From: Plazaster borealis
Taxonomy: Eukaryota; Echinodermata; Asteroidea; Forcipulatida; Labidiasteridae
DNA length: 64,000 nt
NCBI GenBank assembly: GCA_021014325.1
Contig: CM037471.1
Span: 17,008,818 to 17,072,817, forward strand
Direction of reading: 5' to 3'
Shown here piece after piece: positions 2,324-64,000 of the stretch. A program made the position numbers and the translations under genes. The notes under the pieces were generated by a model that saw only the letters and a list, made by a program, of their open reading frames with translations, was not told the DNA's origin and ran no database searches. How positions within the stretch are numbered: position 1 is the first letter of the stretch; the number at the start of each line of letters is the position of its first letter.

Positions 2324-56979
<54,656 letters not shown>

Positions 56980-57624: not shown

Positions 57625-57800
57625 TGGGATCAAGTTGGCTCAGTGGTTTTTTCCCTACCTTTCACTTCTTGGACACTGGTTAGAATCCTAACTTAGACCA
57701 GGTCTCGTATGTGCATTGGGTTTTCAGTCCCTACCAGTGATTGCATGGATTTTCCCCATCGGTGTTTCCTCCCACATCTGACACTGAACATTTCGTCGGT
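57625..57800 (+). mobile_element. Second tRNA-derived SINE
   Basis: 'agttggctcagtgg' (box A) and 'tggttagaatcctaac' (degenerate box B, 57676-57691) are followed by 'gggttttcagtccctaccag' and 'tttcctcccacatctgacac', a body I associate with echinoderm SINEs. Confidence 0.65.
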
Positions 57801-58015
57801 GGTTTTACGATCTGGCAAAATAGCTAAATTACATAAATTTTAGATTTTCTAATCTTTTCATATTCTGAAAGTATTTATTCAATTGTACCTTTTCACAAAA
57901 TTTCAACCCTGGAAACGCGATATTTTTTTAGATATGGTGAATGTCTGGAAGGGGAACATGTCCAAAATGTAGACTTATGTAAAAATTTGGATTTTACGAA
58001 TCGACAATACATTGT

Positions 58016-58267
58016 GTCACCGGTTCGTAAAATCCACACACGCCACGTGTGTGCACGCGCTGTACTTTGCGAACTGACCTAGTTGTTGTGTTGTCGGTTC
58101 GTAATGACTAGTCCTCACCTAGCTTACGCATAGCGTATGTGTGCCTGCGTGAAACTAAAAGGCACGCCGCCATGGCCGCCATGTTTATGATTGTTTTTGT
58201 TGGGGTTTTCCAACTTGATGTCCCTTCCTTCACGAGGCTAACATCTGCAGAACATCCCCATTAAAAG
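58016..58267 (+). promoter_or_regulatory. Putative promoter/first-exon region of the nested gene
   Basis: A locally GC- and CpG-richer stretch (acgccacgtgtgtgcacgcg; cggttcgtaa repeated) leads to GCCGCCATGGCCGCCATG at 58169 and a possible splice donor 'aaaagtaagt' at 58267. The first ATG opens a 30-codon frame that ends at TAA about 58260, so if transcribed it would be an upstream ORF. The predicted acceptor of the first coding exon is at 58968. This is inference from composition and splice-like sites only. Confidence 0.3.
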
Positions 58268-59004
58268 TAAGTCAATTGTCGTCTTTCAAATCAGACTGGA
58301 AATCAGCCTGCAACATTGTATTTTGTAATAGAAAAAGCTAGTGTAAAAGTACGTTCTCAAAGATTGTTCGCAGATATTTACGCCCAACTGCAATTTTCAC
58401 CCAACTCATACTTGGACTGGTCCAACTAACGCGGCAACGCACACAATGAATGGATGACCCATGGCCCATTCCAAGATGGAGTCCAATCGGACACAATCTG
58501 CAATTGGGTGGGGGGGGGTTATCAACAATGTAAAAAAACCCAGCTAAGGCTTAAGCGTGGCTTATGCCAAACCTCACAATAATCACAAGGTTGCATAGTG
58601 TTTACAAACTATAGTGTATGTATTTACTTACATTATTATTAAACTTTATAATACAAAGATAAAATGTTATTAGCCTACTGTTATCTTAAAAGATCAGTCT
58701 TGATGTTAATTAATAATCATTCATCAGTCACTCACTGACTCAGTCATGTATTCTCAGAATAGTTAGTTATGTTTACTGTTGAAGTAAATTTACTTTTCAT
58801 CGAATTTAGTGCACATTAAGTATTCATCGTGATTTGGAAATAATTATTAAATAGATTTATTTGCAGAACAACGAGTCTCAACAAAGTCAAAAATATCTCT
58901 GCAGTTTATAGGTTTTCTTCTATGGAGTGGAAGTATAAACCTCATCCATTTCATTTTATAATTTACAGATTGCTCAAACTTGTACATTACTGCTGGGTTC
59001 AAGA

Positions 59005-59017
59005 ATGGACGAAACAG
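59005..59017 (+). CDS. Nested gene exon 1 (start codon)
   Basis: Encodes MDET plus one base; donor gtaagt. The exon would begin at 58969 after acceptor tttacag. The frame upstream of the ATG is open within the exon, so the ATG choice is tentative. Confidence 0.5.
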
Positions 59018-62000
59018 GTAAGTGATGGGTTTCTCTTTCTTTTTTCTCTTAGCATGTTCCGTTTTAGTCCTCCTTGAATTCTCAAATAATTGAAAATTGC
59101 GACTCCCGAATTGAGTCATAATATTTACTCAATATCATTATTATTATGAGTCGTTAGTACCAACAAGATTGAGTCTCTAGTCCAGTCAATTGTTTTTCAT
59201 GTTGACTTAATTTTGTTATGTGTTTCAAAACAATTAAATAAACAGATGATGTTGATGTGGTCGTTAAATGGAAGAAAGATGGTTCGCTCAACATAGTGAA
59301 TGTAAAAGATCTCTGCATAACTTCCAAGAGACCTCTACAGAAGGGAACAAGCGTCAAAATGAGAAGCAAAGCAAGTTGGTGGAAGGGACGAATCATTCAA
59401 ATATTACCAAAGACCACAGTAATGGATTACCAGGAGAGTGATGAAAGTGATGAAAGTGATGATGATGTATCTTTAGCAATTGTTGGTAAGTAGATTTATG
59501 ATAAGTGTGTAGGCCTATGCAATGTACAATTTTTGTGTAGGTTTTTATTTATATTATCCACTCATTATTTTAGTGTTTACTTTTTTGTATATATTTTATC
59601 TTTTAATGTTCCAGCTTCTCTCAATCTCAATCCTATGTGAGATTTTAGATGTATTTTTTAAATATATGTTCAATGTAATTTTGCCTTTTGCAACAACATT
59701 GAATGTTTTTAATGAACCACTAAAAAATAATCATAATATTAACAACAATAATAATAATTTAATAGACAAATGGGGTAGATTGTGATTCTCACTCAGAAAT
59801 TTAACTTTACACAAGCAGGCATGGGATCATGACACAGTGTTTTAATTGCAAGTAAAATTGTGTTTTCCTGCCCTCTTTTTAGCCTCTCGAGCAGTGCCTG
59901 TTAATCCTGCTGGACAGCATGAAATCCAGCCTGACCGTGGTGAGACTGTCGTCCAGCATGAAACCCAGCCTGACCGTTGTGAGACTGTCATCCAGCATGA
60001 AAGCCAGCCTGACGGTGGTGAGACTGTCGACCAGCATGAAACCCAGCCTGACCGTGGTGAGACTGTCGTCCAGCATGAAACCCAGCCTGACCGTGGTGAG
60101 ACTGTCATCCAGCATGAAACCCAGCCTGACCGTTGTGAGACTGTTGTCCAGCATGAAAGCCAGCCTGACGGTGGTGAGACTGTCGACCAGCATGAAAGCC
60201 AGCCTGACGGTGGTGAGACTGTCGACCAGCATGAAAGCCAGCCTGACGGTGGTGAGACTGTCGACCAGCATGAAACCCAGCCTGACCGTGGAGAGACTGT
60301 CGTCCAGCATGAAACCCAGCCTGACCGTGGTGAGACTGTCGTCCAGCATGAAATCCAACCTGACCGTGGAGAGACTGTCGACCAGCATGAAAACCAGCCT
60401 GATGGTGGTGAGACTGTCGTCCAGCACGAAACCCAGCCTGACGGTGGTGAGACTGTCGACCAGCATGAAACCCAGCCTGACCATGGTGAGACTGCCGTAC
60501 AGCAAGAAAACCAGCCTGACGGTGGTGAGAATGTCGACCAGCATGAAACCCAGCCTGACCGTGGTGAGACTGTCGACCAGCATGAAACCCAGCCTGACGG
60601 TGGTGAGAATGTCGACCAGCATGAAAGCCAGCCTGACGGTGGTGAGACTGTCGACCAGCATGAAACCCAACCTGACCGTGGAGAGACTGTCGACCAGCAT
60701 GAAAACCAGCCTGATGGTGGTGAGACTGTCGTCCAGCACGAAACCCAGCCTGACGGTGGTGAGACTGTCGACCAGCATGAAACCCAGCCTGACCATGGTG
60801 AGACTGCCGTACAGCAAGAAAACCAGCCTGACGGTGGTGAGAATGTCGACCAGCATGAAACCCAGCCTGACCGTGGTGAGACTGTCGACCAGCATGAAAC
60901 CCAGCCTGACGGTGGTGAGAATGTCGACCAGCATGAAAGCCAGCCTGACGGTGGTGAGACTGTCGACCAGCATGAAACCCAGCCTGACCGTGGTGAGACT
61001 GTCGACCAGCATGAAACCCAGCCTGACCGTGGTGAGACTGTCGTCCAGCACGAAACCCAGCCTGACGGTGGTGAGACTGTCGACCAGCATGAAACCCAGC
61101 CTGACGGTGGTGAGACTGTCGTCCAGCATGAAACCCAGCCTGACGGTGGTGAGACTGTCGACCAGCATGAAACCCAGCCTGACGGTGGTGAGACTGTCAT
61201 CCAGCATGAAACCCAGCCTGACCGTGGTGAGACTGTCGACCAGCATGAAACCCAGCCTGATGGTGGTGAGACTGTCGTCCAGCATGAAACCCAGCCTGAC
61301 CGTGGTGAGACTGTCGACCAGCATGAAAGCCAGCCTGACCGTGGTGAGACTGTCATCCAGCATGAAACCCAGCCTGACCGTGGTGAGACTGTCGACCAGC
61401 ATGAAACCCAGCCTGATGGTGGTGAGACTGTCATCCAGCATGAAACCCAGCCTGACCGTGGTGAGACTGTCGACCAGCATGAAACCCAGCCTGATGGTGG
61501 TGAGACTGTCGTCCAGCATGAAACCCAGCCTGACCGTGGTGAGACTGTCGACCAGCATGAAAGCCAGCCTGACCGTGGTGAGACTGTCATCCAGCATGAA
61601 ACCCAGCCTGACCGTGGTGAGACTGTCATCCAGCATGAAACCCAGCCTGACCGTGGTGAGACTGTCGTCCAGCATGAAACCCAGCCTGACCGTGGTGAGA
61701 CTGTCATCCAGCATGAAACCCAGCCTGACCGTGGTGAGACTGTCGTCCAGCATGAAACCCAGGCTGACATCCAATATGTTGTCCTGCCTAATTTAGGATC
61801 ACCAGCTCTTCCAGAATCAAGCTCTTTGCCAACTGAAGGTAAATTGTAGACAACAACACATTTACTTCATGTGATTACACCCCTCCCCCACCTGTGTATG
61901 GAGTGCTTCTATGCCTCAGAGACTGAGTTTCAAAAACAAAAATCTGGTCCCTTGCAACCTTAATTTTTCTTAGCACACTTTTATGTTCTCTTTTAGTTTA

Positions 62001-64000
62001 GTCTAAACTTTTATGTTCTCTTTTAGTTTAGTCTGAATATGGTGAGGGATTGGAGTGTAGCAATACACTTTTTTTAAGGTTTCAAGACAGTAAGTAATAC
62101 ATACCGTTGATAAGTCTTTCTTGTGCATAACTTGTATCCCTTTTCATTTTTAACATTTAGAATTGTTACTACACACAGAAGAAGAAGACAATGATGACAT
62201 CCCACTCTCAATCCTTGGTAAGAATTATCAAATACTTTTCGTAATGTTTTAAAATAAAGTATGTTGTTAAAATCTGCCAGTCATTAGCTGTTAGGTGTAA
62301 GATTAAAATATAAACCTTAATTGTTCAAAATGAACAAAATGTTTGTTGTCGCATCTGGTCGCATTATCTCTCAAAGTGGAATTGTTTTACACTACACCTG
62401 TTGCACACACATGTACATGAATTAATTGTGAAATATATTTCTAATTTTTTTTTAATTCAAGCCTCCTATCCTCCAGCGACTATCGACATCCAGGCAGTTG
62501 TTTCAAATGGAGAACTTATGTTATCGTCTGTTCCACCTAGAGGCTGGATGGAAATCATGGGCCAAGGTGTGTTTTTTCTTCATTTCATTTTTCATTTATC
62601 TTATTTTTTGTTTCCCCCCGTTTTTTACTTTTAAAAAATTGGCATACCTTTTTCTTGCAGCTCCTGCAATGTCACTCTACTTAGAAACGGAAGATGAGCC
62701 AATGTCAATAGAGTCTGATTGGGAAGGTAAATTCTTTAGTATACTACAGTCCATTACTTTTGTCTATATTTTAGTGTTGTGCTTGAGAAAATAATCCAGT
62801 ATGGACATTTTGTCTGGATGACTAGGTTTTATAGCCACCTGTTTTGGTCAAATAATTTTGCCAACAGAGGAATATTTTTATCAGCAAGAAGAAATAGTTA
62901 GGCTGAGTTTAGTTTATTTAGTTCTGATCAGCAAATTCTGTTCAATTGAGTTAATTTGAATTTAAAATTTGTCTTGTTGTTTGCTTGTGATAATTTACAT
63001 TTAGAATTTGTATTTTTCTTTTACAGGTTCACAGCTATCCACAATTGATGATGTAGCCGTTCATACAGATGATGAGAATCCAGAAAGCTTCATCATCGAT
63101 GAATCTGTAGGTAGTGATAATGCCTTATTACTTGATCAGTTTGATACTCCTCCTCAACAGAAAACACCCAGGTCAAAGAATAGGATGGTCAAACAAAAAC
63201 GTAACAAGGGTCTATCATATTACTCTGAAAAGTCTCACAGATTCATTGAGGGTAGGAAAACCATACACAAGCAAAAGTGTACTGGGAAACGGTGTAAATA
63301 TAAGCTTAGTTGCACTAAATTTGATGACCAGGCAGTAAAGTCTTTAAGAGAAGACTTCTATGAAGCAGGGAACTTGGCCCTTCAAAGGGAGTACATAGCG
63401 CGACATGTCAGTTACTCTGTTGTCAGTAAAAGTAGGTGTCACAAAAACAGAATTAAATACACTCTCCCACACCCATCCATCCCAGGGGAAGTTGTTCAAG
63501 TTTGTAGAACGACTTTTTTGAGTTCACTTGCAATAGCGGACCGCCAGGTCCGTACAGTACTGCACAAGAAAAGTAGGCAAACTGGGGTACCTGAAGGAGA
63601 AAAAAGGGGTGGTAAGCAAAATCAACAGCCTCACAAGAGACGTAGGATTCTTCAACATCTCAATCGCTTTCCCCGAATAGAATCCCACTACTGTAGAGCA
63701 TCTACGAAGTGGAACTACCTCTCTGCAGAACTAACAAGGAGAAAGATGTACAGGATGTTTAAAAAGGATCATCCTGGCTGTGGGTTGTTTTCTCTTTATA
63801 AGAAAGTAATGAGAGAACAAAATCTGAAAATTCACAGGCCAAAAAAAGATAAATGCGGACGATGCGAAACATTTCGTCATTGTAGTGAAGCAGAACGTCC
63901 AAAATATCAAACTGACTACGACAGACACAGGGAAGAGATTTCTGAAGTAAGAAAATTCAAAGAACAAAGCAAAGAACGTGCCATTGGAGACGTTTCCCAC
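59005..64000 (+). CDS. Nested multi-exon gene: SH3/Tudor-like domain, 47 x 13-aa repeats, transposase-like C-terminus (partial)
   Basis: Seven exons (59005-59017, 59246-59485, 59883-61838, 62161-62217, 62462-62566, 62661-62726, 63027 on) join through GT-AG introns, every one in phase 1, giving at least 1137 residues. Residues ~5-60 form a small beta-rich domain (VVVKWKKDG..., WWKGRIIQI) like Tudor/SH3 folds, followed by an acidic (ESDESDES) stretch. Residues 96-706 are 47 repeats of QHETQPDRGETVV. Short acidic exons follow. From about residue 880 a basic region contains Cys (KCTGKRCKYKLSC), RFPRIESHYCR, RKMYRMFKKDHPGC and KKDKCGRCETFRHC, an order I know from transposase-derived invertebrate proteins. 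The ORF is open at 64000. The start ATG at 59005 is the first in-frame one in an exon whose acceptor is 58968; upstream coding cannot be excluded. Function unknown. Confidence 0.75.
59246..59485 (+). CDS. Nested gene exon 2: SH3/Tudor-like domain
   Basis: Acceptor aaacag, donor gtaagt, 240 nt, phase 1-1. Encodes DDVDVVVKWKKDGSLNIVN, a KGTSVKMRSKASWWKGRIIQ block, then ESDESDESDDD. The pattern strand-KWxxDG...G..V......WW.G.I..I fits a small SH3-like barrel; the fold is inferred. Confidence 0.85.
59883..61838 (+). CDS. Nested gene exon 3: 47 tandem 13-residue repeats
   Basis: Acceptor ttttag, donor gtaaat, 1956 nt, phase 1-1. From 59915 to 61747 exactly 47 units of 39 bp occur (1833 bp, no net length change), then a decayed 48th. 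The consensus is QHETQPDRGETVV, varying at T/S/N/I, R/G/H/C and V/D/I. An eight-unit block (312 bp) is duplicated. The predicted region is acidic and probably disordered. Long ORFs exist in other frames and on the other strand; the + frame is chosen because both splice sites and flanking exons fit it. Confidence 0.85.
62161..62217 (+). CDS. Nested gene exon 4
   Basis: Acceptor atttag, donor gtaaga, 57 nt, phase 1-1, encoding LLLHTEEEDNDDIPLSIL: a short acidic linker exon. Confidence 0.75.
62462..62566 (+). CDS. Nested gene exon 5
   Basis: Acceptor attcaag, donor gtgtgt, 105 nt, phase 1-1, encoding SYPPATIDIQAVVSNGELML and VPPRGWMEIMGQ. No domain was recognised. Confidence 0.7.
62661..62726 (+). 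CDS. Nested gene exon 6
   Basis: Acceptor cttgcag, donor gtaaat, 66 nt, phase 1-1, encoding PAMSLYLETEDEPMSIESDW, another short acidic exon. Confidence 0.75.
63027..64000 (+). CDS. Nested gene exon 7: transposase-like region, runs off the window
   Basis: Acceptor tttacag, open for 974 nt without a stop. After an acidic start (DDVAVHTDDENPESFIID) comes a basic region with RFIEGRKTIHKQKCTGKRC, HLNRFPRIESHYCRAST, YLSAELTRRKMYRMFKKDHP, then KIHRPKKDKCGRCETF. The Cys pairs and the SHYCR...KMY..F...C...PKKD.C..C order match the pre-catalytic part of transposase-derived proteins I recall from invertebrate genomes. A DDE/RNase H-like core would be expected beyond 64000. Confidence 0.8.

Follow-up and report, generated by a model that had tools for sequence, protein, structure and literature searches.

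A four-copy DNA element of Plazaster borealis with a predicted transposase gene, a predicted Tudor-like head and a coding minisatellite

The closest described relatives of the gene considered here are animal proteins with a 'SHYCR' block and DUF7869 (Pfam: PF25273), a Pfam domain of unknown function; no paper naming DUF7869 or PF25273 turned up in our literature search. Sola elements combine a 4-bp target site duplication (TSD) with a DDD/E-type transposase, and the ranges of size and terminal inverted repeat (TIR) in the published description (PMC10741241) fit our case; the same source gives 5'-TG...CA-3' termini for Ginger, and TTAA is given as the target duplication of Kolobok (PMC9587614). 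Our analysis concerns 64,000 nucleotides of the asteroid Plazaster borealis (GenBank assembly GCA_021014325.1, contig CM037471.1, positions 17,008,818 to 17,072,817, forward strand; hereafter the window), at whose right end the original prediction, made from the sequence alone, had placed a candidate undescribed gene. We conclude with high confidence that this region lies within the left 70% of a four-copy, 8.9-kb DNA element, which has inverted ends and is bounded by 4-bp target duplications; the predicted gene of seven exons is likely to code for a cut-and-paste transposase of the DDE type (Table 1).

A search of the 560.6-Mb genome with 1 kb of exon 7 found the sequence in at least four places, all four candidates being scored. 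Besides the window copy on C17 (8,895 bp), copies lie on C20 (8,356 bp), C5 (7,785 bp) and C7 (8,712 bp); the count of near-identical copies elsewhere in the genome, named as a check in the original prediction, thus comes to at least three. When 20 kb around each copy are compared, pairwise matches stop at most 15 bp from the left end of the element and at most 4 bp from its right end, and the flanks of the four copies are unrelated. The ends read CGTCGGTG..., and in all four copies the two ends pair with each other at 25 of their outermost 27 bases. An inverted-repeat search confined to the window did not detect this TIR, because the right end lies outside. The 4-bp target duplications are identical on both sides of every copy, being ATTT on C17, C5 and C7 and ATAT on C20. 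The exact terminal core CGTCGGTGNTTTTACGATC occurs at eight places in the 560.6 Mb, i.e. at the four left and four right ends, and a control pattern at none. Furthermore, the octamer TTTTACGA lies no more than 450 bp from an end in 8 of its 9 occurrences in each of the copies on C17, C5 and C7, and in 6 of 7 on C20; outside the element, it occurs twice in 57,793 bp of the window. Judged by its inverted ends, fixed 4-bp target duplication and dispersed copies, the element is likely a class II TIR DNA transposon, for which cut-and-paste activity is predicted.

The non-coding parts compared between copies (the 5' part, introns 3, 4 and 6, and the 3' part) are 97.5–100% identical; hence, the spread was likely recent. 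Such identity between four copies of a gene unit could also suggest the segmental duplication of a gene, without any transposition. However, all copies share the terminal sequence on both sides, the inverted repeats and a 4-bp duplication each; on these matching ends, target duplications and copies we reject segmental duplication, which we regard as extremely improbable.

The predicted gene joins seven exons through GT..AG introns into 1,137 stop-free codons, with a frame open at the right edge of the window. Good splice sites and junctions all in phase 1 had been claimed for it, and both are borne out; the uniform phase follows from an exon 1 of 13 bases and five subsequent internal exons divisible by three. 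The WWKG-type head, the 47 repeats and the SHYCR and KCGRCE motifs are likewise present as described. Twelve exon landmarks are common to all four genomic copies, and this conservation, together with relatives that contain head and tail in one protein, places the predicted gene model beyond chance. Further long frames cross the repeat array on both strands because its 39-bp period is free of stops; they provide no evidence for extra genes, and genes in other phases or on the minus strand of the array were rejected as an artefact of the period. In the copies on C17 and C20, the parts of the element on the 5' and 3' sides of the gene contain no frame of more than 85 codons.

Each of the four copies, as assembled, carries a coding lesion, of which the small ones could be assembly errors. 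Compared with C20, exon 7 of the window copy bears two single-base deletions, and it stops after 394 codons, ahead of the second catalytic Asp; because the predicted product is truncated inside the catalytic fold, this copy by itself is likely inactive. The C20 copy has one stop in exon 5, and its exon 7 is open for 622 codons; the C5 copy has one single-base indel in exon 7, and the C7 copy a single-base indel in exon 7 and a 780-bp insert in exon 2. This insert has short inverted ends (ACCTGCCAAC), together with what appears to be a 9-bp duplication. The changes between copies are too few to judge selection.

Multiple exons, all in phase 1 with intact splice sites, would also suit a domesticated host gene in which a transposase, a Tudor-like head and a repeat spacer are retained for a cellular job, and the sea-urchin relative LOC115918229 is indeed an NCBI-annotated protein. 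An undescribed host gene that had captured a transposase and added a spacer was one of two options in the original prediction. It is not borne out, as the locus lies inside a four-copy element: it is contradicted by the TIRs, the TSDs, the unrelated flanks of the four near-identical copies, the coding lesion in each copy and the head-plus-tail relatives in insects and molluscs. A host gene at this locus, rejected on the ends, target duplications and copies, is in our judgment very improbable. The other option, an intact transposon with introns, was correct in kind, given the inverted repeats, the 4-bp duplication and the four copies, but not in intactness, the frame being broken to the right of the window.

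The RNase H core predicted for exon 7 lies to the right of the window. In the predicted model of the relative P0068, the tail adopts an RNase H-like fold with three acidic residues, located at beta1, past beta4 and on the subsequent helix; D482, D559, E600 and D602 of P0068 fall in columns that are at least 90% conserved (89 rows). The tail is therefore predicted, on this model, to be a DDE/D transposase core with a triad of two Asp and a Glu or Asp. The expectation that extension to the right would reveal a DDE/RNase H core agrees with this prediction for the relative, but in the window copy the frame breaks ahead of the second Asp. The AlphaFold2 (AF2) model of the head has a predicted local distance difference test score (pLDDT) of 80.6 and four strands of three or more residues, a complete Tudor barrel having five, and its structural matches to Tudor domains lead us to predict a Tudor-like domain. 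Matches from Foldseek and VIA comprise the top rows, so a family not among them may still match. Among the matches listed, retroviral integrases, Mos1 and SETMAR have 7–10% identity and differ in their N-terminal domains and target duplication. Mos1 and SETMAR have TA as their target duplication. The match to the hybrid Tudor domains of ARID4 and KDM4 covers no more than a part of the hybrid pair.

The tail query (324 aa, P0001) found six proteins, and with a seven-row profile 279 proteins reached E ≤ 1e-3; hosts named among the best 120 of them include Diadema (a sea urchin), Apostichopus (a sea cucumber), the molluscs Patella and Elysia, the crab Petrolisthes and six insect genera. A search aimed at longer relatives found 10, including LOC115918229 of Strongylocentrotus purpuratus (P0124; 1,008 aa). 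In a tree of 32 out of 33 chosen sequences (P0120 was dropped for coverage), the window sequence belongs to a clade with Diadema, Strongylocentrotus and further sequences (support 0.99). The likeness to the DUF7869/'SHYCR' proteins comprises the whole tail, the DGCxGQNKN and HGQxExDxxH blocks and an acidic DDxPL-type motif. It also includes the head, which matched 25 out of 122 listed tail homologues (E ≤ 0.052, 123-protein database) over a stretch starting at residue 1–4; the other nine proteins listed in this search have E values of 0.97 or more. Forty of the 122 homologues are shorter than 600 aa, none of the 25 head-bearers among them, and the count may be too low because of such fragments. 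A head joined to a tail is nothing unusual in this large family of animal proteins. The earlier view that the combination is unlike any family that can be named hence fails for these two parts, in view of the 25 homologues and the sea-urchin protein.

Upstream of the tail, the acidic DDxPL-type motif is present in 32 of the 79 relatives whose sequence extends far enough in that direction, and 200 shuffles gave 7.1 on average and 14 at most; the window gene contains it as DDVSL at the end of exon 2 and DDIPL in exon 4. According to a pattern search, 51 of 79 relatives possess a Cys finger upstream of the tail, whereas exons 4–6 here encode no cysteine. The listed relatives are mostly 600–840 aa long (82 of 122) and none exceeds 837 aa, the search having limited candidates near that length; the spliced gene, with 630 + 622 codons in the C20 copy, its one stop included, is longer because of the array. 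P0124 has the same head, the same tail and its own tandem repeat between them (49-aa period, four times), but the repeat unit differs in sequence and length, and a Cys finger is present. The 13-aa unit may be homologous to this 49-aa unit; the pattern QPDxxxTVVQ was found only in P0124 among 128 relatives.

DUF7869 scores 19.0 bits in the C20 copy, the gathering score being 26; P0003 and P0127 are above this cut-off, and P0008, P0068 and P0048 below it. P0127, a DUF7869 protein from Periplaneta, begins with an N-terminal 22-aa tandem repeat followed by a DUF4817 helix-turn-helix match; what comes after this match resembles mariner, and P0127 is perhaps a fused or misjoined gene model. In Pfam, the head alone matched Agenet (E 0.12) and exon 7 S1FA (E 0.18), both below the cut-off, and NCBIfam gave only weak matches, far below its cut-off. 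A PDB sequence search with the window's part of the tail yielded no match up to E 10; with the head, the best match was an importin at E 0.012, likely by chance. PADLOC gave no match, and two pattern scans of viral contigs gave 1 and 9 matches, none of them a relative by tblastn.

The repeat spacer was aptly singled out at the outset, as its length varies between near-identical copies: there are 47 units on C17, 33 on C20, 19 on C5 and 22 on C7, whole units throughout. Tandem Repeats Finder (TRF) reports 47.5 copies with a 92% match for the window array, and residues Q1, E3, Q5, P6, D7 and E10 are invariant in all 47 units (6 of 13 positions). Strings of unit types contain blocks common to different copies, and a block duplication in C17. 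A sibling search with P0008 in the same genome gave at least 61 matches (67 of 90 candidates scored), i.e. the four copies and other loci at 26–55% identity, many with stops. In the upstream DNA of eight sibling loci, picked for good matches and not randomly, head and Cys finger are present in all eight, one having only a 20-residue piece of the head. Five of these, all belonging to one subfamily, lack an array between head and finger; they are not independent, because their heads are nearly the same. In L034 and L040, an 11-aa unit, TPFTGASTPVA, lies between head and Cys finger in 39.5 and 51.5 copies, respectively, with a frame open throughout, and both loci contain an acidic DELPLSRL motif three times. 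The array of the broken sibling L036 agrees in period with the 20-residue repeat found in the relative P0053; as the L036 array follows the finger and the 11-aa arrays precede it, there are two array positions. Shorter repeats upstream of the tail are also found in relatives, e.g. P0094 (48 aa) and P0053 (20 aa), 93 having been scanned. Because the units differ, and not on the basis of a tree, we infer that the arrays of the sibling groups have separate origins.

One tentative explanation, which we consider rather unlikely as a whole, is that unrelated in-frame minisatellites between the Tudor-like head and the DDE core (13 aa × 19–47, 11 aa × 40–52, 20 aa × 8) arose separately in one genome, outpace the rest of the element in length change, and provide adjustable tethers or multivalent arrays for docking to the host, by which the element escapes host recognition. 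Alternatively, the array could be a passive by-product of replication or recombination without a role in the protein, to which we give a nearly even chance. When the units of the window copy are compared, 12 of 92 possible non-synonymous changes and 5 of 25 synonymous ones are seen, each distinct change counted once, so that the former are almost as common as the latter; this and the five array-less sibling loci are consistent with such a passive origin. Yet all four copies maintain the frame despite their different unit numbers, and siblings and relatives repeatedly have in-frame arrays, unrelated to one another, in the stretch from head to tail. A passive array is about as likely as an array serving as a spacer.

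As to the superfamily, the published descriptions rule out Kolobok, given target duplications of ATTT or ATAT instead of TTAA, and Ginger, given CG...CG termini. The 4-bp TSD, the TIR of about 27 bp, the size of 7.8–8.9 kb and the predicted acidic triad match the description of Sola (PMC10741241), the comparison being by description only. In target duplication and size, Sola thus appears to fit best among the superfamilies, a tentative assignment; that the element belongs to these DDD transposons is possible, if somewhat short of probable.

Cut-and-paste transposition by a DDE enzyme, with joins 4 bp apart, is proposed on the basis of the anatomy of the element and of established transposase chemistry. 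The transposase would act as a multimer on both element ends, and the inverted repeats and clustered subterminal octamers would be recognised by its helix-turn-helix-like, Cys-containing middle. After cleavage at the CGTCGG ends, these would be joined to the two target strands at points separated by 4 bp. A tether of the complex to chromatin or DNA would be provided by the head, and the array may act as a flexible spacer that can drift in length.

When three mismatches are allowed, the terminal core is found at 147 + 147 places, against 93 + 108 in the control. Twelve such loci were fetched, four of them pairs of neighbouring places and eight taken from the 14 places that differ by one or two mismatches; seven of the twelve (L022, L028, L029, L031, L021, L025 and L032) contain an inward-facing pair of ends 549–836 bp apart. 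Their 4-bp duplications are identical in four cases (ATAT, ACAT, AATT, ATAT), agree in three of four bases in two, and in two of four in one; the fully matching ones, together with ATTT, fit ANNT. A tblastn search with four family proteins gave no match in the 12 loci. These short elements are likely non-autonomous relatives, which the transposase of the 8.9-kb element may mobilise.

Other tandem arrays of the window consist of a 41-bp unit at 12526–20403 (192 copies, 93% match), one 34-bp unit shared by arrays at 34818–37224 (70.7 copies), 41316–41948 (18.6) and 42285–42519 (6.9), and a 21-bp unit, a period divisible by 3, at 50473–51155 (32.8 copies).

Table 1. Features of the element in window coordinates, and sibling loci on C7.
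Feature	Position	Strand	Remarks
DNA transposon	57794..64000	+	left 6,207 bp of 8,895; ends at C17:17075505 (66688 in window numbering); block common to four copies
Target site duplication ATTT, left copy	57790..57793	.	second copy directly after right end
Left terminal inverted repeat CGTCGGTGGTTTTACGATCTGGCAAAA	57794..57820	+	25/27 pairing with right end
TTTTACGA motif inside TIR	57803..57810	+	
Subterminal TTTTACGA motif	57992..57999	+	
Subterminal TTTTACGA motif, inverted	58025..58032	-	
Exon 1	59005..59017	+	start codon, MDET; same sequence in all four copies
Exon 2	59246..59485	+	predicted Tudor-like head at about 59248-59406; acidic SDDDVSLA motif
Exon 3	59883..61838	+	repeat linker
In-frame array, 47 x 39 bp, majority unit QHETQPDRGETVD	59915..61747	+	47 units of 13 aa
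Exon 4	62161..62217	+	second acidic motif, NDDIPLSIL
Exon 5	62462..62566	+	
Exon 6	62661..62726	+	
Exon 7	63027..64000, open	+	predicted N-terminal part of transposase body; SHYCR and KKDKCGRC blocks; homologues P0002-P0007 and family profile
L034, sibling transposase gene	C7:11907600-11912500	minus	
L040, sibling transposase gene	C7:7542600-7547400		
L036, broken sibling	C7:8595900-8600700		60-bp (20-aa) unit x 8.4 after Cys finger, stop-interrupted

The class of the element is known; it is a transposon carrying a fast-changing coding minisatellite. Among the literature matches listed, no title or abstract start dealt with a transposase that bears a Tudor domain or contains a coding minisatellite, most subscription papers lying outside this search. 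As far as searched, the ends with their target duplication, the Tudor-like head as a recurring part, and the recurrence of coding minisatellites between head and tail are new. A mobile-element identity, ends and a target duplication are now assigned to one lineage of DUF7869. In its likely transposase, a predicted chromatin-reader-like head is linked to the enzyme by a minisatellite that differs in length among near-identical copies, and the natural series of 19, 22, 33 and 47 units may serve as a probe for the effect of reader-to-core spacing.
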